A stretch of 64,000 bases of DNA from assembly GCA_016928195.1 (NCBI GenBank), contig JAFGLF010000063.1, positions 1 through 64,000 on the forward strand, given 5' to 3'. A program made the translations under genes and the position numbers. This DNA comes from Elusimicrobiota bacterium (GTDB taxonomy: Bacteria > Elusimicrobiota > UBA8919). Numbering within the stretch: the stretch's first letter is position 1; the number at the start of each line of letters is the position of its first letter. Positions 2,340-62,522 of this stretch are shown here, one piece after another. The notes below the pieces were generated by a model. That model did no database searches, was not told the origin of the DNA, and saw only the letters and a list, made by a program, of their open reading frames with translations.

Positions 2340-2987
2340 ATGGGGCAAAAATTCAGAATTAAGAATTCAGAATTAAGAATTCAGAAGTGGTTTTTACTCT
2401 TATCTCTTATCTCTTATCTCTTACTTTCTGTATTTATTGCTTGTGTTCCGAAAGCAAAATACTTAGCCGAAAACTATACACCGCCGGAAAAAATTGCTGT
2501 TTTACCTTTTACTAATCAGGCGATTGATCTTGACGGACCTGTTTTATTAAGATATCTATTTGACCAACGATTGTATAATTTGGGTTATGATACTATACTT
2601 TTTGAAGAAATAGACAGGAAACTTCATGAAATGGGCATTACGGACGCAGGACAACTGCCGACTACCACACCCAAAGAACTTGGAGAAAAGCTGGGTGTTG
2701 ACGGCCTCATTTACGGAGAAGTAATAACATTTAACTATGTAACCCTGGGATTTTATTATTCACGAACCGTAGAAGCAAACTTCAAGCTTATTGATACCAA
2801 AACGGAAAATCTTCTATGGGAAGACGAAAGGAAGATTTCCATGAAAGAACTTCAATTTAAGGATGTCGGTAAAGCATTTGCTTCACAGCTTATAGAAAAA
2901 ACACTTGACAAAGCATTGAAATCTCCGCTAAGACCGGAATCCGAAGCTGTTGTAAATATATCTCTCAGAACATTACCAAGGAGGTAA
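2340..2987 (+). CDS. Lipoprotein, DUF799/GNA1162-like
   Basis: Lipobox-like signal peptide; KIAVLPFTNQ, LGVDGLIYGEVITF. Confidence 0.7.
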   Translation: MGQKFRIKNSELRIQKWFLLLSLISYLLLSVFIACVPKAKYLAENYTPPEKIAVLPFTNQAIDLDGPVLLRYLFDQRLYNLGYDTILFEEIDRKLHEMGITDAGQLPTTTPKELGEKLGVDGLIYGEVITFNYVTLGFYYSRTVEANFKLIDTKTENLLWEDERKISMKELQFKDVGKAFASQLIEKTLDKALKSPLRPESEAVVNISLRTLPRR

Positions 2988-2989
2988 AA

Positions 2990-3970
2990 ATGAAACACGC
3001 AGAACAAACACAGAACATAACGCGGAACAGACGCGGAAATGGAAAGTGGAAAGTGGGACTTCTTACTCTCTTACTCTCTTACTCTCTTACTCTCTTTACA
3101 TCATGTGCTCCTTCTACAAGGGTAAAGAAAAAACAGGCAGTAACCATTGACAAACCGAAAGAAGTCATTGTTCCTCCTAAGAAAAAAATATCTGTTATTG
3201 ATTTTGAAAACAAAACCGCATACGGACAGAGACGGCTCGGCACAGCGGCATCCGATATCTTAATGACAGAACTCGGTAAATCCGGAAAGTTTATACTTAT
3301 AGAAAGAGCAAAACTTAATAAAGTTCTGGAAGAGCAGAAACTGCAAACAACAGGTCTTATTGATTCGCACACGGTTTCAAAAGCCGGAAAAATACTTGGT
3401 CTTGATGCTGTTGTGGTCGGCGCGGTCTCACAGTTCGGAATAAAAAAAGGCGGATCTAATTATCTATTGACACAGTCGAAAAGCCAGGTTGCGGAATGTA
3501 CTGTGGATATAAGAGTCATAGAAGTTGAAACCGGAAAAATTCTTTATATCGATTCTGGCAAAGGCGTTGCAAAATCATCCAAAGGTTCATTCCTCGGTAT
3601 GGGAACAAAAGGAGCTTATGACGAAACAATCGAAGGCGAATCTCTGCGTGCGGCAATTGCAAAATTCGTCGATAATATAGTTTTCCAGGTAAATGCCAGA
3701 CCGTGGTCGTGCAGGGTTGCCGAGGTTGATGCTGATAATATATATCTGGACGCAGGACAGGAATCCAATCTGAAACTCGGAACAAAACTTATAGTATACA
3801 GCCAGGGAAAAGAAATCAGGAGCCCTGACACCGGAATGGTCATAGGCAGAACGGAAAAGAAACTCGGAGAAATCGAGGTTATTGATTATTTCGGAACCAA
3901 TGGCTCTACGGCAAAACTTATAAATGGCAAAAGACCCCAGCGGGGCGATCTATGCCGCCTTATTAAGTAA
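2990..3970 (+). CDS. CsgG/HfaB-family curli-type lipoprotein
   Basis: KISVIDFENKT, ILIERAKLNKVLEEQKLQ, LDAVVVGAVSQF typical of the CsgG family. Confidence 0.8.
   Translation: MKHAEQTQNITRNRRGNGKWKVGLLTLLLSYSLTLFTSCAPSTRVKKKQAVTIDKPKEVIVPPKKKISVIDFENKTAYGQRRLGTAASDILMTELGKSGKFILIERAKLNKVLEEQKLQTTGLIDSHTVSKAGKILGLDAVVVGAVSQFGIKKGGSNYLLTQSKSQVAECTVDIRVIEVETGKILYIDSGKGVAKSSKGSFLGMGTKGAYDETIEGESLRAAIAKFVDNIVFQVNARPWSCRVAEVDADNIYLDAGQESNLKLGTKLIVYSQGKEIRSPDTGMVIGRTEKKLGEIEVIDYFGTNGSTAKLINGKRPQRGDLCRLIK
3062..3093 (+). repeat. Octamer tandem repeat (CTTACTCT)x4 in signal-peptide coding region
   Basis: Four perfect copies read directly. Confidence 0.95.
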
Positions 3971-5717: not shown

Positions 5718-5808
5718 GAAACGCGAATACACGCAAATAGATAAATGTAACGCGAATATTCGCGAATATTCGCGTTAGATTAGCGATAATTAGCGTTAAT
5801 GAGCGAAG
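5718..5808. repeat. CGCGAAT-family quasi-palindromic element, copy 1
   Basis: acgcgaatacacgcaaat ... cgcgaatattcgcgaatattcgcgttagattagcgataattagcgtta. Confidence 0.9.
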
Positions 5809-11290: not shown

Positions 11291-11300
11291 ATGTTATAAT

Positions 11301-11422
11301 CTTATCTAGAGTGGCTGAGGGATAGGCCCTGTGAAGCCACAGCAACCGCCCGCCTAAATATGAAATTTTTGGCGGGGTCGAGGTGCTAAAGCCTGAATTC
11401 CGGGAAACCGGGAAACGATAAG
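11301..11422 (+). promoter_or_regulatory. SAM-I (S-box) riboswitch aptamer
   Basis: CTTATCtAGAGtggctGAGGGAtaGGCCCtgtGAAGCCacaGCAACC ... AGGTGCtAAAgCCtgaattCCGGGAAACCGGGAAACGATAAG; P1 CTTATC/GATAAG. Confidence 0.93.
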
Positions 11423-11435
11423 AAGAAGAAATTTT

Positions 11436-11479: not shown

Positions 11480-11574
11480 GAACGCGAATACACGCAAATG
11501 AAAACACACAACGCGAATATTCGCGAATATTTGCGTTAGATTAGTGATAATTCGCGTTTAGCGAACGGAGTGAG
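11480..11574. repeat. CGCGAAT-family element, copy 2
   Basis: acgcgaatacacgcaaat...cgcgaatattcgcgaatatttgcgttagattagtgataattcgcgttt. Confidence 0.9.
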
Positions 11575-11576
11575 CT

Positions 11577-12779
11577 ATGAGAACAATAACAGAAATTAAC
11601 AAAAAAATTAAAAGTGGAAATGCCGTTATTTTAACGGCAGAAGAAATGATTGATCTGGTGGAAAAAGAGGGTGTAAAAAAAGCTGCTCAGAAAGTAGATG
11701 TCGTAACTACAGGTACCTTCGGACCGATGTGTTCATCAGGAATCTACATAAATATAGGCCATTCTAAACCAAGAATCAAACTGGGTGCAGGTGGATGTTA
11801 TTTAAACGATGTCCCTGCATATGCGGGATATGCTGCGGTTGATATCTCACTCGGTGCCAGTGCGGTACCCGACGATGATCCGCGCAATAAATATCATCCG
11901 GGTGATTTTAAGTACGGCGGAGGACATGTCATAGAAGATTTTGTGGCAGGCAAAAACCTAAAATTAATTGCCAAAGCATACGGTACAGACTGTTACCCGA
12001 GAAAAAAACTGGAGACATATATAAACATTAAAAATGTTAATGAAGCTGTCCTTTTTAACTTAAGGAACTGCTACCAAAACTACAACTGTGCAGTCAATCT
12101 CTCATCTAAAACTATTTATACCTACATGGGTGTTCTCAAGCCAAAACTCGGAAATGCTACATATTGTTCCGCAGGCCAGCTTTCACCGCTGTTAAAAGAC
12201 CCGCATTACAGAACAATAGGCATCGGTACAAAAATATTTCTAGGTGGAGGCGTCGGTTTCATATCATGGCAGGGAACACAGCATAATCCGACAGTTAAAA
12301 GAAAGAAAAACGGAACACCTTCAGCTCCTGCGGGTACTATTGCGGTAATCGGTGATTTAAAACAGATGAAACCTCAATGGCTGAGAGGGACAAGTATGCT
12401 TGGCTATGGTGTAACATTAACCGTAGGTATAGGCATCCCAATCCCTATCCTTGACGAGGAAATGGCAAGATTCACAGCAATAAAAGACGAAGAAATATTT
12501 ACACAAGTCATCGACTATGGTAAAAATTATCCTGAGGTCATTCCTGGTTCTCTTGGAGAAGTGAACTATGCCCAATTGAAATCCGGACATATTAAACTCA
12601 GTGATAAGGAGATTCCGACCTCATCACTTTCGAGTTATTCAAAAGCATTGGAAATTGCCAATACTTTAAAGGATTGGATAAAATCTAAAAATTTCTTACT
12701 TACAGAACCGGTTGAAAAACTTCCTGAAGAAAGCTCAGGTTTAACCTGTAAATTATTGAAAGAAAAACCGTTAGAATAA
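11577..12779 (+). CDS. DUF39 homocysteine biosynthesis protein (HcyBio)
   Basis: TTGTFGPMCSSGIYINIGHSKPRIKLGAGGCYLNDVPAYAG; behind a SAM-I riboswitch and paired with NIL-ferredoxin. Confidence 0.9.
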   Translation: MRTITEINKKIKSGNAVILTAEEMIDLVEKEGVKKAAQKVDVVTTGTFGPMCSSGIYINIGHSKPRIKLGAGGCYLNDVPAYAGYAAVDISLGASAVPDDDPRNKYHPGDFKYGGGHVIEDFVAGKNLKLIAKAYGTDCYPRKKLETYINIKNVNEAVLFNLRNCYQNYNCAVNLSSKTIYTYMGVLKPKLGNATYCSAGQLSPLLKDPHYRTIGIGTKIFLGGGVGFISWQGTQHNPTVKRKKNGTPSAPAGTIAVIGDLKQMKPQWLRGTSMLGYGVTLTVGIGIPIPILDEEMARFTAIKDEEIFTQVIDYGKNYPEVIPGSLGEVNYAQLKSGHIKLSDKEIPTSSLSSYSKALEIANTLKDWIKSKNFLLTEPVEKLPEESSGLTCKLLKEKPLE

Positions 12780-12780
12780 G

Positions 12781-12873
12781 AAACGCGAATACACGCAAAT
12801 GAAAACACTCAACGCGAATATTCGCGAACATTTGCGTTAGATTTGCGGTAATTAGCGTTAAGGAGCGTAGCGA
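12781..12873. repeat. CGCGAAT-family element, copy 3
   Basis: aacgcgaatacacgcaaat...cgcgaatattcgcgaacatttgcgttagatttgcggtaattagcgtta. Confidence 0.9.
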
Positions 12874-16210: not shown

Positions 16211-17464
16211 ATGAATCTTAATTATACACAAGCATTAAAGTATGTTGAAAATCTTGGTGAATTTGTTTACGATTTTAATTTAACCCGCATAAAAAGAATC
16301 TTAAAAAAACTGGATAATCCTCAGGATAAATTAAAGGTTATTCATGTTGCAGGCACTAACGGAAAAGGCTCTGTTTGTGCATATATTTCTGCAATCTTAC
16401 AGAAAGCAGGTTACAGAGTCGGACTTTATACATCACCGCATATATTGGATATCCGGGAACGTATTCAGATAAACAGGGAAAAAATTTCAAAAAGTGACTT
16501 TGCGAAATTTGTATTTAACTACTCCCTACTCCCTACTCCCTACTCCCTGACTTATTTTGAATTTATAACAGCAATGGCTTTCTGGCACTTTGAACGTAAT
16601 CAAGTAGATTTTGCAATTATGGAGGTCGGACTGGGGGGACGCCTGGATGCAACAAATGCTGTTGAAAACCCGCTTATCTCTGTTATTACAAACATTTCAC
16701 TTGAACATACTCAGTATCTTGGTAATACAATAAAAAAAATAACAAAAGAAAAATCCGGAATTATAAAAAATAACGGGGTAGTCGCAACTGCTGAATCCGG
16801 CGATGCACTAAAGGTAATAAAAGATATCTGCAGAACAAAAAAAGCAAAGCTCATTCATTCAGGACAAATGAAATACGGGGGTTATAAAACACCTCTTTTA
16901 GGTGAACATCAGAAACAGAATATGCATTTAGCGGTAACAGTGTGCAGATTTCTGAATATACAAAAAAAATATATTGTTGCGGGATTAAAAAATACTTATT
17001 GGCCGGGCAGATTTGAAATTACCCGGCTCACTGCTAACGGCTCGCTGCTAACTGTAGTTTTGGATGTTGCTCATAATCCGGCAGGTATGACAGCATTGTA
17101 TAATTCTATCAAAAATTATCTCGGCAGGAAAATAAACCCTGTTAGAAAGGGCGTCCCGCAAAACAGGATTTCTAACAGGGTAAACTTTGTTTTTGCGGTT
17201 TTCAAGGACAAAGATTATAAAAAAATGATAAAAATTATTTCACCTGCCGTAAAAAACGTATTTATATCAGCAGTCAAAAACAAACGTGCCCTGCATCCCG
17301 GAATTATAAAAAACGAGTTTCGAAACTATATTCCGGAACAAAATATATTTATTTGCACCAATATAAAAAGAGCAATAAAATCGGCAATAACGGCTTCTGA
17401 AGATTTCTGTATCACAGGATCAATATATACTATTGGAGAAGGAATAAAATGGCTAAAAATTTAG
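16211..17464 (+). CDS. folC: Folylpolyglutamate/dihydrofolate synthase
   Basis: VAGTNGKGSVCAYISAILQKAGYRVGLYTSPH, EVGLGGRLDATN, LDVAHNPAG. Confidence 0.95.
   Translation: MNLNYTQALKYVENLGEFVYDFNLTRIKRILKKLDNPQDKLKVIHVAGTNGKGSVCAYISAILQKAGYRVGLYTSPHILDIRERIQINREKISKSDFAKFVFNYSLLPTPYSLTYFEFITAMAFWHFERNQVDFAIMEVGLGGRLDATNAVENPLISVITNISLEHTQYLGNTIKKITKEKSGIIKNNGVVATAESGDALKVIKDICRTKKAKLIHSGQMKYGGYKTPLLGEHQKQNMHLAVTVCRFLNIQKKYIVAGLKNTYWPGRFEITRLTANGSLLTVVLDVAHNPAGMTALYNSIKNYLGRKINPVRKGVPQNRISNRVNFVFAVFKDKDYKKMIKIISPAVKNVFISAVKNKRALHPGIIKNEFRNYIPEQNIFICTNIKRAIKSAITASEDFCITGSIYTIGEGIKWLKI
16519..16546 (+). repeat. (CTACTCC)x4 heptamer repeat in frame in folC
   Basis: Four perfect copies. Confidence 0.95.
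17136..17181. repeat. Palindromic element in folC: 13-bp perfect arms accctgttagaaa / tttctaacagggt
   Basis: Arms read directly; encodes NPVRKGVPQNRISNRVN. Confidence 0.92.
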
Positions 17465-18354
17465 TGGGAATTGATATCGGCGGAACCAAGATACTTATAG
17501 TTCTTATTAGTGAAAACGGCAGGATAAAAAAAACCATCCATGTCCCAACAACCAGCGAACCGCCGCTTACCATATTAAACAGAATAGCGGAACAGTTAAA
17601 ACTATTCAAAAATTTTAAGTCCATAGGTATCGGAATAGCCGGTGATGTTGACGGCAAAAACGGCATTTTAAGACTTTCTCCGAATCTTCCTAAATGGAAA
17701 AACATCAATTTAAAAAAATTCTTTGAAAACAGATTAAAAACTCCTACCATAGTCGATAACGACGCTAACTGTGCAGCCTATGGTTCCTACGTACTTGACG
17801 GGAAAAGAAAATTTAAGAATTTCATTATGATAACCCTTGGGACAGGCATGGGGGGAGGAATTATTATTGACGGCAAACTTTACAGGGGTGCTTCCGGAAC
17901 CGCAGGTGAAATAGGGCACACTACTATAAATCCTAATGGGCCAAAATGTACCTGCGGAAACTACGGATGTCTTGAAACATATATCGGGTCAAAAGGAATA
18001 GTCCGCATGTGGCAGGCCTATAAAACCAGCTTTTATACAAAAAACATAACGCCCTTGATAATTGCCAATATGGCAAGAAAAAACAATAAAAAAGCACAAA
18101 TGGTTTTTGATGAGTTTTCGGAATATCTCGCCATGGGGGTCAGCGGAATAATAAATATTTTCAATCCCGATATGATTTCCTTTTCCGGCGGAGTCTCTAA
18201 TGACTGGGATATCATCAAAAAAGTATTTTTCAAAAAACTAAAATACCACTCATTCTCAACCCCGCTGAAACACGTAAAAATCATAAAATCGAAGTATTCT
18301 AATAATCTTGGAGCAATCGGTGCAGCACTTTTATCTTCTGGTAAAGAAAGGTGA
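17449..18354 (+). CDS. ROK-family sugar kinase/glucokinase
   Basis: GIDIGGTKI, DNDANCAAYG, LGTGMGGGIIIDGKLYRG, CTCGNYGCLETY. Confidence 0.92.
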   Translation: MAKNLVGIDIGGTKILIVLISENGRIKKTIHVPTTSEPPLTILNRIAEQLKLFKNFKSIGIGIAGDVDGKNGILRLSPNLPKWKNINLKKFFENRLKTPTIVDNDANCAAYGSYVLDGKRKFKNFIMITLGTGMGGGIIIDGKLYRGASGTAGEIGHTTINPNGPKCTCGNYGCLETYIGSKGIVRMWQAYKTSFYTKNITPLIIANMARKNNKKAQMVFDEFSEYLAMGVSGIINIFNPDMISFSGGVSNDWDIIKKVFFKKLKYHSFSTPLKHVKIIKSKYSNNLGAIGAALLSSGKER

Positions 18355-20300
18355 TACGGATATACGCTGATAAGATGATACGGAAAAAAATAAAATCTCC
18401 AATGCAGTTTTTACATATCACCATATCACCTTATTATCTTACCAGCTGTCTTTTACTTATTACCTTATTACCTTATCAACTTATTACCTGCCTCTATGCC
18501 GAACAGGAAATCAACATTACATCCGATAAAATGGTTTATGACAAGTCAGGCAACAAGGCGTTTTTCTCCGGCAATGTTAAACTGAATGCTGGAGATATTT
18601 TTGTAAAATGCAAATCGGCGAAATTAGATGTATTTAAAGGGGATGTTTATCTCAAAAGTGTTTATTTTACAACATGTGACCCGGAAAATCCGCATTACAG
18701 GTATTATTCAAAAAGAGTTCATCTGGTTCTGGATAAATATATAACAGCTTTTCCTGCCGTTTTTCTTTTGGATGATGTTCCGCTCGGCATTCATCCGTAT
18801 TATTATAAATCCTTAAAAGATAAAAAACTGAGAGTTGAATTCACTCACGGATATACCAGAGAAGACGACTACTATACAAACGGAACTATAGGATATCAGT
18901 TCTCCGAATATTTCCGTAATAAACTTTACATTGACTACTACTCATATAAGGGTTGGGGTAAAGGGACCGAAGCAACCTATGTGGTTCCGGGACAGCTGGA
19001 CGGCACTGTTTACGGATATATAATAAAAGAAAATGATACTCATGAGAAAAGATGGAATCTAAGAATGTATCATTGGCAGAATCTTACTCATGACTGGATT
19101 GCACAGGTAAATTCAAATGTTTCCAGTGATGAATCATTCAATGACAAATATACCGATGACTGGACAAAAATCGAAAGAGACATAAATTCATCCGTTGCAT
19201 TTACAAAAACCGCACAGCAATCAACAGCCCGTATCTACTTTTCCAGATATGATGTTTTTGATCCTTCTACAAATAAGTACATTTTAACAGATCTTACAGC
19301 TCCTTCCGTTTCATACGAAACCAGAAAAATAAGAATAAAAGAGATGCCTCTTTATTATGAATTCGGTATAAACGGAAAAAGGACATGGAATAGATATAAC
19401 GATTTCTATAAGATAGAAAGCGATTCAAACTTGGATATAACAAATCCCCTTCAGCTTACGAGAAAGGCAACACTTACGTCCTCAGTCGGGTTTGCCGAAT
19501 ACTGGGAAGACAGAAAAAGCAAAGAGGACAAAGAAGATGTCTTCAGAAGTGTTTATAAAACAGATTTAAACCTGCGAATACGCCCGACTTATTTTCTTTC
19601 TCACGAGTTTGGTCATCACTTTGAACAGGAACTCTACAAAAAAAAGGATGAATATCACGGCGTTCTTAGCAATAAGCTCAGAACAACACAATCGGTATAT
19701 CTGGATAATTTAACATTACGGTTCTGGACAGGACTGGATATACGCAGAAAACTTAATGAAAAAATTATTGTATATAGAGACCGCCTGGATGATATAACCT
19801 CTGAAGCTGAATACGATACTTACGGATTTCTGAACCTTTATTACAGGAATTCATATAATGTTGTTAACAGAAAACCTACTTCTGTCCGGTATGAAGCAAC
19901 TGTAAAATTTAAACATGATAGATATAGCCAAGATGAGTCAACAGAAATAGCATATTTAAAAAAAGGAGTTTCATACCATAATAGTATGCCGGATCATGTA
20001 ACATCGTTTGCGGAATTAGGTATCAGACCGACAAAAAACTGGCAGTTTGCCTTTAAAACACAGTTAAGTTTCAATTATAACGATTTTTCCGACTTCAATT
20101 ATTACGAACACCGTATAAATGTATACAGGGACCTGCACTGCTGGGAAGCACTATTTTCATACATTGACAGATATGACGACTATGAATTCTGGTTCAAAAT
20201 AAGAGTAAAACCGCCCTCTTTGGAGAAAAAAGAAAAACGTTTTGAAAAATATGAAAGGAAGTGGTATCCGTGGCGGGAAAAGGGAAGCCAATTCATCTAA
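18351..20300 (+). CDS. LptD/OstA-like outer membrane assembly protein
   Basis: INITSDKMVYDKSGNKAFFSGNVKLNAGDIFVKCKSAKLDV followed by a long beta-rich C-terminus. Confidence 0.7.
   Translation: MIRIYADKMIRKKIKSPMQFLHITISPYYLTSCLLLITLLPYQLITCLYAEQEINITSDKMVYDKSGNKAFFSGNVKLNAGDIFVKCKSAKLDVFKGDVYLKSVYFTTCDPENPHYRYYSKRVHLVLDKYITAFPAVFLLDDVPLGIHPYYYKSLKDKKLRVEFTHGYTREDDYYTNGTIGYQFSEYFRNKLYIDYYSYKGWGKGTEATYVVPGQLDGTVYGYIIKENDTHEKRWNLRMYHWQNLTHDWIAQVNSNVSSDESFNDKYTDDWTKIERDINSSVAFTKTAQQSTARIYFSRYDVFDPSTNKYILTDLTAPSVSYETRKIRIKEMPLYYEFGINGKRTWNRYNDFYKIESDSNLDITNPLQLTRKATLTSSVGFAEYWEDRKSKEDKEDVFRSVYKTDLNLRIRPTYFLSHEFGHHFEQELYKKKDEYHGVLSNKLRTTQSVYLDNLTLRFWTGLDIRRKLNEKIIVYRDRLDDITSEAEYDTYGFLNLYYRNSYNVVNRKPTSVRYEATVKFKHDRYSQDESTEIAYLKKGVSYHNSMPDHVTSFAELGIRPTKNWQFAFKTQLSFNYNDFSDFNYYEHRINVYRDLHCWEALFSYIDRYDDYEFWFKIRVKPPSLEKKEKRFEKYERKWYPWREKGSQFI
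18456..18487 (+). repeat. Octamer tandem repeat CTTATTAC/CTTATCAA x4 in the signal peptide
   Basis: cttattac cttattac cttatcaa cttattac. Confidence 0.92.
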
Positions 20301-20389: not shown

Positions 20390-22495
20390 AACTTTAAACT
20401 TGTTTCTAAATTCAAACCTGCAGGTGACCAGCCCGAAGCAATCAAACGACTTGTAGAAAGAACGCGAATAAACGCTAATCAAACGCAAATATTCGCGAAC
20501 GATTCGCGTTTTTCTTCTCACCAGGTTTTGTTGGGCGTTACCGGATCAGGAAAAACATTTACTATTGCAAATGTAATAGAAAAACTACAAAAGCCCACCC
20601 TCGTAATATCACACAATAAAACACTTGCCGCACAGCTTTATTCAGAATTCAAGTCATTCTTTCCGTATAATGCGGTTGAATATTTTATCTCATACTATGA
20701 CTATTACCAGCCAGAAGCATATATACCCCAGACAGACACATATATAGAAAAGGATGCCTCAATAAACGATCATATCGACAGGCTGAGGCTAAAAGCAACA
20801 TCATCAATACTGACAAGAAACGATGTAATAGTTGTTGCTTCTGTTTCTTCCATCTACAACCTTGGTTCTCCTTCCGATTTTAGTGAAATGTGTATTATTA
20901 TTGAAAAAGGAATAAAACGCAGCGGATACCGCGATCTTCTACTTAATGAACTTGTAAATATTCATTATGAAAGAAATGATATTGGTTTTGCAAGAGGTAA
21001 ATTTCGTGTCAGAGGCGATATAGTTGAAGTTTTTCCCGCAAACATGGAAACAGCAATACGAATCGAGTTTTTTGGTGATGAAATCGAAAAAATTACCGAA
21101 ATAAGCCCCGTAACCGGACACTCACTCGCCCACTCGCTCACTCGCTGTCTTATATATCCGGCGAAACATTTTGTAACACCGCGGTTGCGGCTGGAAAAAG
21201 CAGTCGAAAATATAAAAAAAGAATTAGAAGAACGTATAAAATTCTTCAAAGACAACGGGAAACTGCTGGAAGCTCAACGTATTGAACAACGTACAAATTA
21301 TGATATAGAAATGCTGCTTGAAATGGGATACTGCCATGGAATAGAAAATTATTCAAGACATCTTTCCGGAAGACCGCCGGGGTCAAGACCGCCATGTCTA
21401 ATAGATTACTTCACGAATGATTTCCTTACTATTATCGATGAATCCCACGTAACAATTCCCCAGATCTACGGCATGTATAAGGGCGACCGGGCAAGAAAGG
21501 AAACTCTTATTGATTTCGGATTCCGTCTTCCGTCCGCATTGGACAATCGTCCGCAAAAATTCGAAGAGTTTGAATCACTGGTAAATAACGTTATCTACTT
21601 ATCTGCAACACCCTCTAAATATGAGCTAAAAAAAGTAAAAGGAATAATAATCGAACAGATCGTCAGACCCACAGGACTTGTAGACCCCGAAGTCATAATT
21701 AAGCCCATAAAAAAACAAGTGGATGATCTGGTCCCGGAAGTAAAAAAGCGGATAAAACACAAAGAACGTATTCTGGTTACAACACTTACAAAAAGGATGG
21801 CAGAGGACCTTGCAGAATACCTTTTTGAAAAAAAATTACGTGTAAAATACATACATTCCGACATTGATGCCCTCGAACGGATTGAAATAATGAACGATTT
21901 GCGCAAAGGTAACTTTGACGTACTTGTAGGGGTTAACCTTCTTAGAGAGGGCCTTGATCTGCCTGAGGTTTCCCTGGTTGCCGTCCTGGATGCTGACAAA
22001 GAAGGTTTCCTGAGAAGCGAAACATCCATAATACAGGTTTGCGGGAGGGCATCCAGAAACATAAACGGTTCGGTTATTCTATACGCAGATAAAATAACAG
22101 GTTCTATGAAACGTGCTATAACCGAAATGAACCGCAGAAGAGAAAAACAGATACTATACAACAAAATTCATAAAATCACTCCTAAATCAATCGTAAAAGC
22201 TGTCTCGGAACTTGAAGAATTCCAATACAAAGCAAAACGTGATTCTCTTACTATCCTGAAGGAAGACGGGATTAAATATGTCTCAAAGAAAAATATCCAC
22301 GGAATAATAAAAAAACTTGAAAAAGAAATGAACGAAGCCGCGGATAATCTGAATTTTGAAGTTGCAGCCATTCTAAGAGACAAAATATTTGAATTAAAAG
22401 ATATGCGAGTTGTCCCACCATCTGCTTACACACCGAAAGGTGTGTCTAGAGACACACAAGCAGGCGGTGGGATTGATAAGAAACAAAAAATATGA
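20387..22495 (+). CDS. uvrB: Excinuclease ABC subunit B, GTG start
   Basis: [47 protein letters not shown]-terminal UVR motif. Confidence 0.97.
20459..20512. repeat. CGCGAAT-family element inserted in frame in uvrB, copy 4
   Basis: aacgcgaataaacgctaatcaaacgcaaatattcgcgaacgattcgcgttt encodes [17 protein letters not shown] between LVE and [13 protein letters not shown]. Confidence 0.93.
21118..21150. repeat. cactcactcgcccactcgctcactcgctgtc word repeat in uvrB
   Basis: Reverse complement matches GAGTGAGCGAGT words at the atpA 3' end. Confidence 0.8.
22414..22473. repeat. CCACCACCTGC-family element, copy 2, forming the UvrB C-terminus
   Basis: cccaccatctgcttacacaccgaaaggtgtgtctagagacacacaagcaggcggtggg, inverted ends. 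Confidence 0.85.
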
Positions 22496-27071: not shown

Positions 27072-27180
27072 ACAACGCAAATGAACGCAAATATTGAGAC
27101 AACGCGAATAAGCGCGAAAAAAAATAATATAAATATTCGCGAAAATTAGCGTTTGATTAGCGACAATTCGCGTTAAGTGA
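27072..27180. repeat. CGCGAAT-family element, copy 5, in the groES 5' leader
   Basis: acaacgcaaatgaacgcaaat...aacgcgaataagcgcg...tattcgcgaaaattagcgtttgattagcgacaattcgcgtta. Confidence 0.88.
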
Positions 27181-34830: not shown

Positions 34831-34835
34831 CGACA

Positions 34836-35798
34836 ATGACAAATTACAAATTACAAATGACAAATTACAGATACGTGACAGGAATTTTTAGGTGGTTTTT
34901 GACCCTATCTGTCATCTGTCATCTGTCATTCCTCATTTGTCTTTATGCTGCTGGAAGTACAAGTGCAGAATTCCTCCTTATCCCAAAAGGGGCAAAAGCT
35001 TCCGCAATGGCAGGAACATATACTTCCGGCGGGAATGATTCGACCGTTATATATTACAATCCTGCCGGTATAGCTTTAATTAAAGAAAAAGATATTTCAT
35101 TCTCACACAGCCAGTGGCTTGAATCCATAAATCTTGAGAATCTCTCCTATTCGGCTCCTCTGAATAAAGCTTTTTCTATCGGTGTCGGACTGGAGTATCT
35201 AGGGATCCGCGGGATTGCAGGCATGGCAAACCAACTCTCGCCTATAGATGATTTCAGCTCCCACGATCTTTCAATGGTTACCGGTATCTCATATCTACTC
35301 AACAAAAATATTTCCTTCGGTTTGAATACAAGGTATATTGAAGAAAAAATTGACGATGAAAAAGCAACCGCAATCTCTTTTGATTTCGGAAGTATCTATA
35401 GACAGAGAATAAACTCTCATAAGCATCTTTCGATAGGCATAGCGGTTCAGAACATAGCATTAACAAAACCAAAATTCATTGACCAAACAGAAGATATTCC
35501 TGCAAAAATTGTTTCGGGGATATCATATAAACCTTTGGGCGAAGCATTATTATTATCATCGGACCTGGTACTTATGAAGGGTTCTAAACCTTCAATAAAT
35601 ACGGGTTCGGAACTGTTTGTTTACGATACTTTATGTATGCGATTCGGCTATAAACTTGACACTGCATTCGAAAATCACTCCCGTATTACCTGCGGTGCCG
35701 GGATAATCTTTGAGAATATGTCTATTGACTATGCGTATCTCCCGTTTGAATCTCTTACTGATACCCATACACTCTCAATAGGCTTTAAGTTTAAATAA
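34836..35798 (+). CDS. PorV/PorQ-family outer membrane beta-barrel protein
   Basis: SAEFLLIPKGAKASAMAGTYTSGGNDSTVIYYNPAGIA; C-terminal GFKFK. Confidence 0.82.
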   Translation: MTNYKLQMTNYRYVTGIFRWFLTLSVICHLSFLICLYAAGSTSAEFLLIPKGAKASAMAGTYTSGGNDSTVIYYNPAGIALIKEKDISFSHSQWLESINLENLSYSAPLNKAFSIGVGLEYLGIRGIAGMANQLSPIDDFSSHDLSMVTGISYLLNKNISFGLNTRYIEEKIDDEKATAISFDFGSIYRQRINSHKHLSIGIAVQNIALTKPKFIDQTEDIPAKIVSGISYKPLGEALLLSSDLVLMKGSKPSINTGSELFVYDTLCMRFGYKLDTAFENHSRITCGAGIIFENMSIDYAYLPFESLTDTHTLSIGFKFK

Positions 35799-60544: not shown

Positions 60545-61354
60545 ATGAAAAAAATTAAAATACTGTTATATGCTGATACGCTGATACGTAAGTATGTAAA
60601 AAGACTTATTCTTATCATTTGTTTCTCACTTATCAACTTATCAACTTATCAACTTATCAACTGCCTTTATTCCGAAAATACTTCAGAATCCGATTCGTTT
60701 TCCGTTTTCTCAAAAACACCGAAACCGGTCGAAATAATAGATATACCTACAGCCGAAGTTGTCGAATATACAAGTTTCAAACTGAGTTTCCGTATGCATG
60801 GTTCAGGCGGAATCATTCCGAAAATGGTCTTCGGCGTTTTCAAACCTATCAATATAGGTATGTCATGGGACATAAACAATCTTATAGGTACCGGACACAA
60901 TGAAATAGATACCCAGCCGCCGGCAATATTTTTCAAGGCAAGAATTTTTTCCGGAGGAATGATTATACCGGCAATTGCTATCGGCTACGACGGCCAGGGC
61001 TACGGAACATATAACGACGACACCGATAAATACCAGTACCGGGAAAAAGGAATCTATCTGACATTGACCAGAGAATTTTTCATACCCGGACTGGAAACAT
61101 CATTCGGATGCAATATTTATGATTTTGACGATGACGGGCTATTCGGATTTATCGGATTCTGCTATGGTATTGAAAACAAAATTCTTTTTCTCGGGGAATA
61201 CGATAATATAAGTTCAGCACCCGAAAACCGTGCCAATCTGGGTGCAAAAATATTCATAACCGACAAAGTAGATGTAGGGGTTGCCGGAAGAAACCTTTTC
61301 AGAGGCCCCGAATCAGAAAGAATAGCAATAATCAAATATAACGGCAAATTCTAA
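60545..61354 (+). CDS. Predicted exported outer-membrane protein, YjbH-like
   Basis: Signal peptide; SSFKLSFRMHGSGGIIPKMVFGVFKPINIGMSWDINNLIG-type region. Confidence 0.5.
   Translation: MKKIKILLYADTLIRKYVKRLILIICFSLINLSTYQLINCLYSENTSESDSFSVFSKTPKPVEIIDIPTAEVVEYTSFKLSFRMHGSGGIIPKMVFGVFKPINIGMSWDINNLIGTGHNEIDTQPPAIFFKARIFSGGMIIPAIAIGYDGQGYGTYNDDTDKYQYREKGIYLTLTREFFIPGLETSFGCNIYDFDDDGLFGFIGFCYGIENKILFLGEYDNISSAPENRANLGAKIFITDKVDVGVAGRNLFRGPESERIAIIKYNGKF
60629..60660 (+). repeat. (CTTATCAA)x4 octamer repeat in the signal peptide
   Basis: Four perfect copies. Confidence 0.96.
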
Positions 61355-61456: not shown

Positions 61457-62443
61457 ATGGCGAACGGACAAACTATTCTTGATTTCGAAAGACCTGTTTC
61501 AGAACTTGAAACAAAGATCTCAGAACTAAAAAAAATGTCTACAGACCATGGACACGATTTTACTTCTGAAATCAAAACACTCGAAAAAAAATGCGAAAAA
61601 CTGAAATGTGAAATCTTTTCCAACCTGACATCCTGGCAAAGAGTTCAAATTGCACGTCATCCCAACAGGCCGCATACACTCGAATTTGTAAATTTAATAA
61701 TGACGGATTTTACCGAGATACACGGCGACAGGACCTTTGCAGACGATAAAGCTATAGTCTGCGGAATTGCCAAGATTAATAATACGCCGGTTCTCGTTGT
61801 CGGGCATCAGAAAGGAACCAATGTAACCGAAAACATGATACGAAACTTCGGCATGCCTAATCCCGAAGGATACAGAAAAGCACTCAGAATATTCAAACTT
61901 GCCGAGAAATTCAATAAGCCGATTGTTACTTTCATTGATACACCGGGCGCATATCCCGGAATAGGTGCCGAAGAACGGGGGCAATCGGAAGCAATCGCAA
62001 GAAATCTGCTTGAAATGTCACAGATAAAGGTTCCGATCGTCGTCTGTGTAATCGGAGAGGGCGGTTCGGGCGGAGCGCTGGCAATTTCGGTTGGCGACCG
62101 TATTTTAATGCTTGAAAACTCCATCTACTCCGTTATTTCACCCGAAGGCTGTTCTGCAATATTATTCAAAAACGACAGATCAAAAGCACCGCAAGTGGCA
62201 GAATCACTAAAACTTACCGCTCCTGACCTTAAGAAACTCAGAATTGTGGATGAAATTATTAAAGAACCTAGAGAAGGTGCGCATAAAAACGCAGAAGAAA
62301 CCGCAAAATCGCTGGCTTCAGCAATAAAGAAACATTTATGTGAACTGAAAAAAATGCCGGTTGACAAACTTCTGCAGGAAAGATACAAAAAGTACAGATG
62401 TATCGGCGACTTCATGGAACCAAAAAAAAAGAAACACGGTTGA
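61457..62443 (+). CDS. accA: Acetyl-CoA carboxylase carboxyltransferase alpha subunit
   Basis: FEIHGDRTFADDKAI-like region, TPGAYPGIGAEERGQSEAIA, GEGGSGGALAI. Confidence 0.97.
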   Translation: MANGQTILDFERPVSELETKISELKKMSTDHGHDFTSEIKTLEKKCEKLKCEIFSNLTSWQRVQIARHPNRPHTLEFVNLIMTDFTEIHGDRTFADDKAIVCGIAKINNTPVLVVGHQKGTNVTENMIRNFGMPNPEGYRKALRIFKLAEKFNKPIVTFIDTPGAYPGIGAEERGQSEAIARNLLEMSQIKVPIVVCVIGEGGSGGALAISVGDRILMLENSIYSVISPEGCSAILFKNDRSKAPQVAESLKLTAPDLKKLRIVDEIIKEPREGAHKNAEETAKSLASAIKKHLCELKKMPVDKLLQERYKKYRCIGDFMEPKKKKHG

Positions 62444-62522
62444 AACATAGTAGAAACACAATAGAAACATAGTAGAAATACAGTTGAAATATAGTTGTTA
62501 CAATGAGTTTCAATGTATTTCC
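62436..62522. repeat. gtagaaacata / tttcaatgtatttc word-repeat element
   Basis: gttgaaacatagtagaaacacaatagaaacatagtagaaatacagttgaaat...gagtttcaatgtatttc. Confidence 0.8.

Follow-up and report, generated by a model that had tools for sequence, protein, structure and literature searches.

Tandem short-word repeats in the signal-peptide-coding DNA of an Elusimicrobiota genome and their turnover among orthologs

Two adjacent lipoprotein genes near the start of the window (the whole 64,000-nucleotide stretch of contig C1 analysed here) begin with tandem repeats of short words, purine-rich where the n-region of a signal peptide (SP) is expected and pyrimidine-rich where the h-region is expected. 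This raises the question of how repeat DNA came to encode export signals, and whether, as the initial annotation proposed, such elements act as ready-made ones. SPs tolerate great sequence change, and to our knowledge the origin of new SPs has seldom been seen.

The window belongs to G000, a draft metagenome-assembled genome of 2.37 Mb (35% GC, 87 contigs) with a contamination estimate of 6%. We sampled 1.10 Mb of it (≈46%; 852 called genes). Further stretches, ≈0.4 Mb per genome, came from G001 and G005, which represent two sister genera among the eight genomes of the family (G000–G007). One assembly per species was used throughout. The G005 stretches were chosen partly on contigs with matches to CTTACTCA, which biases the absolute density in that genome. 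Genes were called with a home-made caller and SPs with a home-made rule instead of SignalP; the predicted SPs satisfied the Sec pattern of a positive n-region, a hydrophobic h-region, and a cleavage site or lipobox. Arrays were scanned as tandem units of 6–12 bases with a strict score, and those in the window were located with TRF. The two lipoprotein genes contain the following features.

2340..2987, + strand: GNA1162-like lipoprotein gene with word-encoded SP (PF05643, 4.7e-11); Shine-Dalgarno GAGGAG 5' of the ATG
2350..2386, + strand: purine word array AATTCAGAATTAAG, n-region FRIKNSELRIQK of gene 2340 (TRF); word family common to the G001 ortholog
2397..2423, + strand: pyrimidine word array (CTCTTAT)3.9, h-region of gene 2340 (TRF)
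2990..3970, + strand: CsgG-family lipoprotein gene with word-encoded SP (PF03783, 6.2e-30); AAGGAGGT 5' of the ATG
3035..3056, + strand: purine words (GGAAAGT)3.3, n-region of CsgG gene 2990 (TRF)
3061..3096, + strand: perfect (TCTTACTC)4.5, 100%, h-region of CsgG gene 2990 (TRF)

The lipobox Cys codon lies at about 2442 in the GNA1162-like gene and at 3104 in the CsgG gene. The 24-mer starting at 2351 was expected 0 times in shuffled sequences, and the h-region of gene 2340, in a corrected reading, is WFLLLSLISYLLLSVFIAC. The nearest named relatives of the window CsgG protein were Elusimicrobia MAGs; one of them, UBA9627, was 79% identical, only from residue 24 onwards.

Tandem words of 7–8 bases were found within the N-terminal SP in all five window genes that had been flagged (5/5), where the initial annotation had placed them and more strongly than it had stated. 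The gene originally placed at 18351 probably starts at the ATG at 18375 and not at the GTG at 18351. The features of the remaining three genes were:

18375..20300, + strand: large exported-type protein gene, LptD/OstA-like by eye only, with no Pfam match
18414-18434 and 18456-18489, + strand: CATATCAC and CTTATTAC words, h-region of gene 18375 (TRF)
34836..35798, + strand: PorV/UPF0164-like outer-membrane protein gene with word-encoded SP (Pfam match)
34835..34869, + strand: AATTACA x5 (AATTACA/AATGACA words), n-region of gene 34836 (TRF)
34907..34929, + strand: (ATCTGTC)3.3, h-region of gene 34836 (TRF)
60545..61354, + strand: exported-type protein gene with word-encoded SP, no Pfam family
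about 60557..60617, + strand: copy of the GATACG palindromic element in the SP of gene 60545 (E 1.5e-8, 80%)
60568-60588, + strand: ATACGCTG words, SP of gene 60545 (TRF)
60628..60662, + strand: (ACTTATCA)4.4, h-region of gene 60545 (TRF)

The mature parts of the five genes matched GNA1162, CsgG and PorV/UPF0164, with two lacking a Pfam family. The SP of gene 18375 combines a GATACG-type n-region with CTTATTAC words, and it is only in this SP segment that the protein resembles unrelated proteins.

We considered the possibility that the starts had been annotated too far upstream, which would make the words untranslated leader DNA. A possible start after the words was present in 10 of 29 G005 genes. 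However, a Shine-Dalgarno sequence preceded the start 5' of the words in 9/20 genes of G000, 4/5 of G001 and 12/29 of G005, a rate as in other genes, while the alternative start 3' of the words had one in 0, 0 and 1 cases, respectively. Furthermore, the lipobox Cys follows directly after the words in the lipoproteins, leaving these proteins with no other available h-region. Such an artefact is hardly credible, and the downstream starts that the initial annotation had named as a threat to its own proposal did not materialize.

Arrays were strongly concentrated in SP-coding DNA. G000 had 14.2 strict arrays per 10 kb of SP-coding DNA, compared with 1.1 in transmembrane segments, 0.43 in other N-termini, 0.30 in gene bodies and 1.41 in intergenic DNA. 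The corresponding densities for SP, body and intergenic DNA were 9.7, 0.23 and 4.9 in G001, and 35, 1.15 and 5.4 in G005, where the stretches were partly word-selected. The predicted enrichment over other coding DNA was thus borne out in three genera, at 47-fold (G000), 42-fold (G001) and 31-fold (G005) relative to gene bodies (p below 1e-7 in each). Relative to intergenic DNA the excess was 10-fold in G000, 6.6-fold in G005 and 2-fold in G001, the last not being significant (p = 0.09). As a control, the SP arrays were compared with 40 synonymous-codon shuffles. Strict arrays occurred in 20 of the 193 SP genes of G000, against 0.15 (maximum 1) after shuffling; the numbers were 5 against 0.03 in G001 and 29 against 0.15 in G005. 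Because synonymous recoding nearly abolished the arrays, low-complexity, Leu-rich protein sequence was ruled out as their cause. Almost all array periods were 7 and 8, with a few of 10, and multiples of 3 almost never occurred.

The pyrimidine strand is the one read in h-region arrays, giving peptides such as LLTHLLTYSLTHCLYA, LLSLISYLL, SVICHLSSVIC and LLTAHCSLLT, and the purine strand is the usual one in n-region arrays. A purine n-array stood beside an h-array in 4/21 word-encoded SPs of G000, 1/5 of G001 and 3/26 of G005 (8/52), so that the two-arm layout described initially, purine for the n-region and pyrimidine for the h-region, holds for about a sixth of them; most consist of a pyrimidine, hydrophobic array alone. 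Pyrimidine words had been said to lack stop codons, and 89% of SP words were indeed stop-free on the pyrimidine strand, compared to 51% of intergenic words. The purine strand was stop-free for only 26% and usually contained stops, which does not support, as worded, the initial statement that purine words give Lys/Arg/Asn/Glu. A period of 7, 8 or 10 is not a multiple of 3, and a given strand therefore yields an identical repeating peptide whichever frame is read; any pyrimidine word free of stops consequently makes an h-region in every frame. Hairpin energies of word-encoded SPs were slightly below those of shuffles (mean z about −0.5), while intergenic arrays reached −1.2 to −1.9. In view of the weak folding signal in the SPs, we do not claim that all of the SP arrays arose from strong hairpins.

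The mature domains of word-SP genes included BatD, LptD_N/LptC, DUF3108, PorV and PorP_SprF, and further ones were TraF_2, BamB-like PQQ, polysaccharide deacetylase, CHU_C and Por_Secre_tail. Judged from sequence, these exported-type domains are evidence for export that is independent of the SP call. The cleavage regions of G000 and G005 word-SP genes often end in CLYA, CLYS or CLHG with varied codons, which suggests that a lineage-specific signal peptidase preference may be kept at the protein level.

The words were not conserved among orthologs. Across six further family genomes, the mature CsgG and GNA1162 proteins were about 62–81% identical and the lipobox was kept, but the SP DNA mostly was not. 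The CsgG/GNA1162 SP words by genome were:

G000: GAATTAAGAATTCAG/CTCTTAT
G003: GGGAAGT/TTACTGC
G004: AGTTAAA/TTTTTAA
G001: CATCTTG or CAGAATT
G005: CTACTTG
G007: CTACCTTT

The CsgG SPs of G006 and G007 were without words. Orthologs with different words retained the charged-then-hydrophobic order and the lipobox. In an operon of four exported-type proteins, compared between L032 and L202, the SP DNA differed at 4/4 genes. A more distant Elusimicrobia MAG, L079, had words in both its CsgG and GNA1162 genes (GTCTACT; TATCATCT), and most other Elusimicrobia had ordinary SPs on both. The n-arm word family of GNA1162 was common to G000 and G001 while that of the h-arm was not, and in CsgG of G004 and G005 the two arms were likewise replaced separately. 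We therefore dropped the notion that both arms always come from a single inserted element. Since the mature proteins are alike while the SP words differ, SP renewal can be traced gene by gene.

Some words were dispersed. Identical words recurred at unrelated loci in several genera, and 42 of 85 arrays in G000 used words present at no fewer than two loci (at least 2), the other 43 being singletons in the sample. Words of the type CTTACTCA had 22 matches in G000 and 30 in G005 and occurred in 6/341 genomes of the phylum, while a reversed control pattern gave 0. With the arrays masked, 61/193 SP regions of G000 still matched elsewhere, with 65 of the matches in intergenic DNA and 52 in other SPs. 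One dispersed family is the GATACG element, a palindrome of ≈85 bases in which GATACG/TGATATGC arms flank TGTAAATATGTAAAAACCTTTATCC (type copy L022:2976-3062). Genome-wide, G000 contained 47 matches to it, and for several copies these ran in both orientations. Of its 13 copies in the sampled part, 10 were intergenic and 3 SP-coding (L057:6105, L020:8312 and window 60559-60617, in gene 60545). Its dispersed inverted-repeat copies and their presence in frame inside coding genes are features of MITE-, RPE- and RU-type elements. The SP at L057 contains a roughly 100-base GATACG element that the ortholog L197 in another genus lacks, with (ACTTACTC)4 in both. This present/absent site is the clearest sign of an apparent insertion; no target-site duplication was identified at it.

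These observations bear on two other explanations. The first involves no mobility: SP DNA would be weakly constrained, words would be born in place by replication slippage, and Leu/Ser/Thr/Tyr-rich repeats would be tolerated as h-regions. The 43/85 singleton words in G000, the shortness of the arrays (3–5 units) and the independent change of n- and h-parts all fit such an origin, and birth in place may contribute because about half of the G000 arrays have single-locus words. However, as a full account it is unlikely, given the same words at unrelated loci in several genera, the non-repeat sequence common to SP regions and intergenic elements, the GATACG copies with their filled and empty site, and the arrays in enzyme loops described below.

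The second is the strong form of the initial proposal, in which selected mobile export cassettes create new secreted proteins. On the reverse strand, intergenic GATACG copies hold an open frame, IRLYGNTVIWIKVFTYLHISISAYQHI, that is charged and then hydrophobic, and unrelated proteins are alike in the SP segment only. Yet an SP-shaped frame was present in only 27–50% of intergenic word elements, against 19–30% of shuffles (50% vs 30% in G000, 48% vs 25% in G005 and 27% vs 19% in G001, where there was hardly any excess), and the word-free member of the ortholog pairs seen generally had an ordinary SP already. No element was found to have made a non-exported protein exported; among the orthologs that we compared, the words take the place of a predicted SP that was already there rather than create export. 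We regard the strong form as very improbable. What survives of the ready-made export signals is that dispersed elements serve as SP-coding DNA; they overwrite existing SPs and are not proven cassettes.

Words also occur in frame in cytosolic enzymes. Two such segments lie in the window:

16519..16548, + strand: (CTACTCC)4.3 in frame in a cytosolic Mur-ligase/FolC-type enzyme, NYSLLPTPYSL (TRF)
20461..20520, + strand: decamer-word segment in frame in a UvrB loop (TRF); the G005 ortholog has AGAACATC in the same loop

Further in-frame word elements were found in MurG, PheT, PGM and homoserine kinase, and the SP of an LptA/LptC-type gene contained a word array. Words differed between genera in corresponding loops of the orthologs of UvrB, DeoB, threonine synthase and prephenate dehydrogenase, some of these names having been assigned by eye. 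Because enzyme loops hold words too, word replacement is a general process of which SPs are the densest coding target. Intergenic palindromic decamer-word elements (CGCGAATATT, ATTAGCGAAAATTAGCG) were seen in the window at 5721-5807, 11512-11535, 12813-12861 and 27074-27174; the UvrB segment at 20461 belongs to the same family.

The enzymes also bear on the idea that the arrays are contingency switches, in which slippage of 7- or 8-base units would alter the reading frame and so switch surface proteins ON or OFF. In Neisseria opa, a CTCTT pyrimidine tandem repeat with a unit that is not a multiple of 3 encodes the leader peptide (PMC3960869), and the arrays described here resemble it in having such units near the 5' end, in surface-protein leaders. 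However, opa is one gene family with a known phase switch, whereas here many unrelated genes have short arrays with different words. Housekeeping genes, among them MurG, PheT, UvrB and PGM, contain like arrays, as does the LptA/LptC-type SP, and there the OFF state should be costly. The arrays are often imperfect as well as short, and orthologs differ in word identity, not just in copy number. Contingency switching is thus a poor candidate, with very little chance of being correct.

The explanation that we consider probable is that dispersed tandem-word repeats invade or convert tolerant DNA and overwrite SPs, with words exchanged while selection keeps the SP pattern. The genome would hold many short dispersed repeat families made of tandem 7-, 8- or 10-base words, often forming imperfect hairpins. 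These would enter intergenic DNA, enzyme surface loops and, most densely, SP-coding DNA, where words would be acceptable because an SP needs only a physico-chemical pattern. Stop-free pyrimidine words would serve as the h-region and purine words sometimes as the n-region, and the predicted word-encoded peptides would then work as SPs. Arrays may later be swapped for other words, the n- and h-parts independently, while selection preserves charge, hydrophobicity, and cleavage site or lipobox; slippage in place may add further arrays. The excess in SPs over intergenic DNA may come from selective retention, from repeated conversion, or from the two together. As to how the repeats would spread, no mobilising enzyme was established for the words; Y1 (RAYT/IS200-type) transposase homologs were found in 8/8 family genomes, with 1 in G000 (C78:27917) and 4–7 in each of G001–G007. 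More speculatively, pyrimidine words that lack stop codons and have a period indivisible by 3, together with purine-first palindromes of them, might form frame- and strand-independent export-signal cassettes, which could give a charged-then-hydrophobic peptide when inserted near a gene start in either orientation and so constitute a lineage-wide shared pool renewing SPs. We hold this to be doubtful.

REPs are extragenic hairpins of 20–40 bp without tandem words, marked by a GTAG/CGTC tag and found near a Y1 transposase gene. The repeats described here resemble REP/BIME and RAYT systems in their short dispersed palindromes, in the Y1 homologs throughout the family and in a BIME-like element in G005 SPs, but differ in having tandem words, and the single Y1 homolog of G000 has no established link to these. 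The BIME-like element, GTAGCGG...CCGCTAC (GTAGCGGCGGGATTGCTATCCCGC...GTCGCATAGCAATGCGACCGCTAC), is intergenic and also present in several SPs, where it reads RIAMRPLLL. Its sites in G005, from masked-array matching, were:

L190:5706-5869
L198, L187, L205, L200, L202

Closer precedents are the RU-2 (YPAL) and RU-1 MITEs of Yersinia and other enterobacteria, which are fused in frame and include the signal peptide of YPO1552 (Delihas 2007, PMC2759123, PMC2229807). Each of those is one defined element at few loci, whereas here tens of SPs contain many tandem-word families, with words differing among orthologs of several genera. Rickettsia palindromic elements are dispersed palindromes found between genes and in frame inside conserved proteins (PMC2229807, PMC10969869), and palindromic dispersed repeats are read in frame here too. 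However, those are defined families of 100–150 bp inside conserved proteins, in contrast to tandem 7–10-mers that are densest in SPs. Heptameric or STRR repeats of Nostoc and Xanthomonas and the TAACTGA repeats of Beggiatoaceae are dispersed arrays of 7-base words, typically with few units; the available portions of these reports (PMC4692102, PMC4679880) place them mainly between genes, under-represented in coding DNA, and describe no SP preference. The intergenic excess and coding deficit of the Nostoc type were not seen here as such: gene bodies were depleted, but density was highest in SP-coding DNA. In the literature searched, the coverage of which was incomplete, we found no report of genome-scale, word-changing SPs and none joining SPs and repeats in Elusimicrobia. 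Single-gene precedents are known (Yersinia RU-2, Neisseria opa), while the scale and turnover appear new. Repeat DNA here feeds directly into protein function on a genome scale, which provides a natural test of the minimum sequence information needed by an export signal. It also calls for caution, as repeat masking or start re-annotation could remove real SPs in such genomes.

Several other features were observed. PorV/PorP homologs and CHU_C or Por_Secre_tail sorting domains were present at L027, L051, L103, L107 and window gene 34836, which suggests a putative type IX-like secretion system in this genome. In G005 (L205), a type IV pilin-like gene beginning MKTKNLKTTSDFRLPTYGFTLIELM had a word array in its short leader. 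An Rfam scan of the window gave a single match, a SAM riboswitch (RF00162, 76.7 bits) at 11299-11424, 5' of the gene at 11577. Finally, a 22/11-base tandem array lies at 62430-62495 of the window, at the 3' end of the gene ending at 62443.
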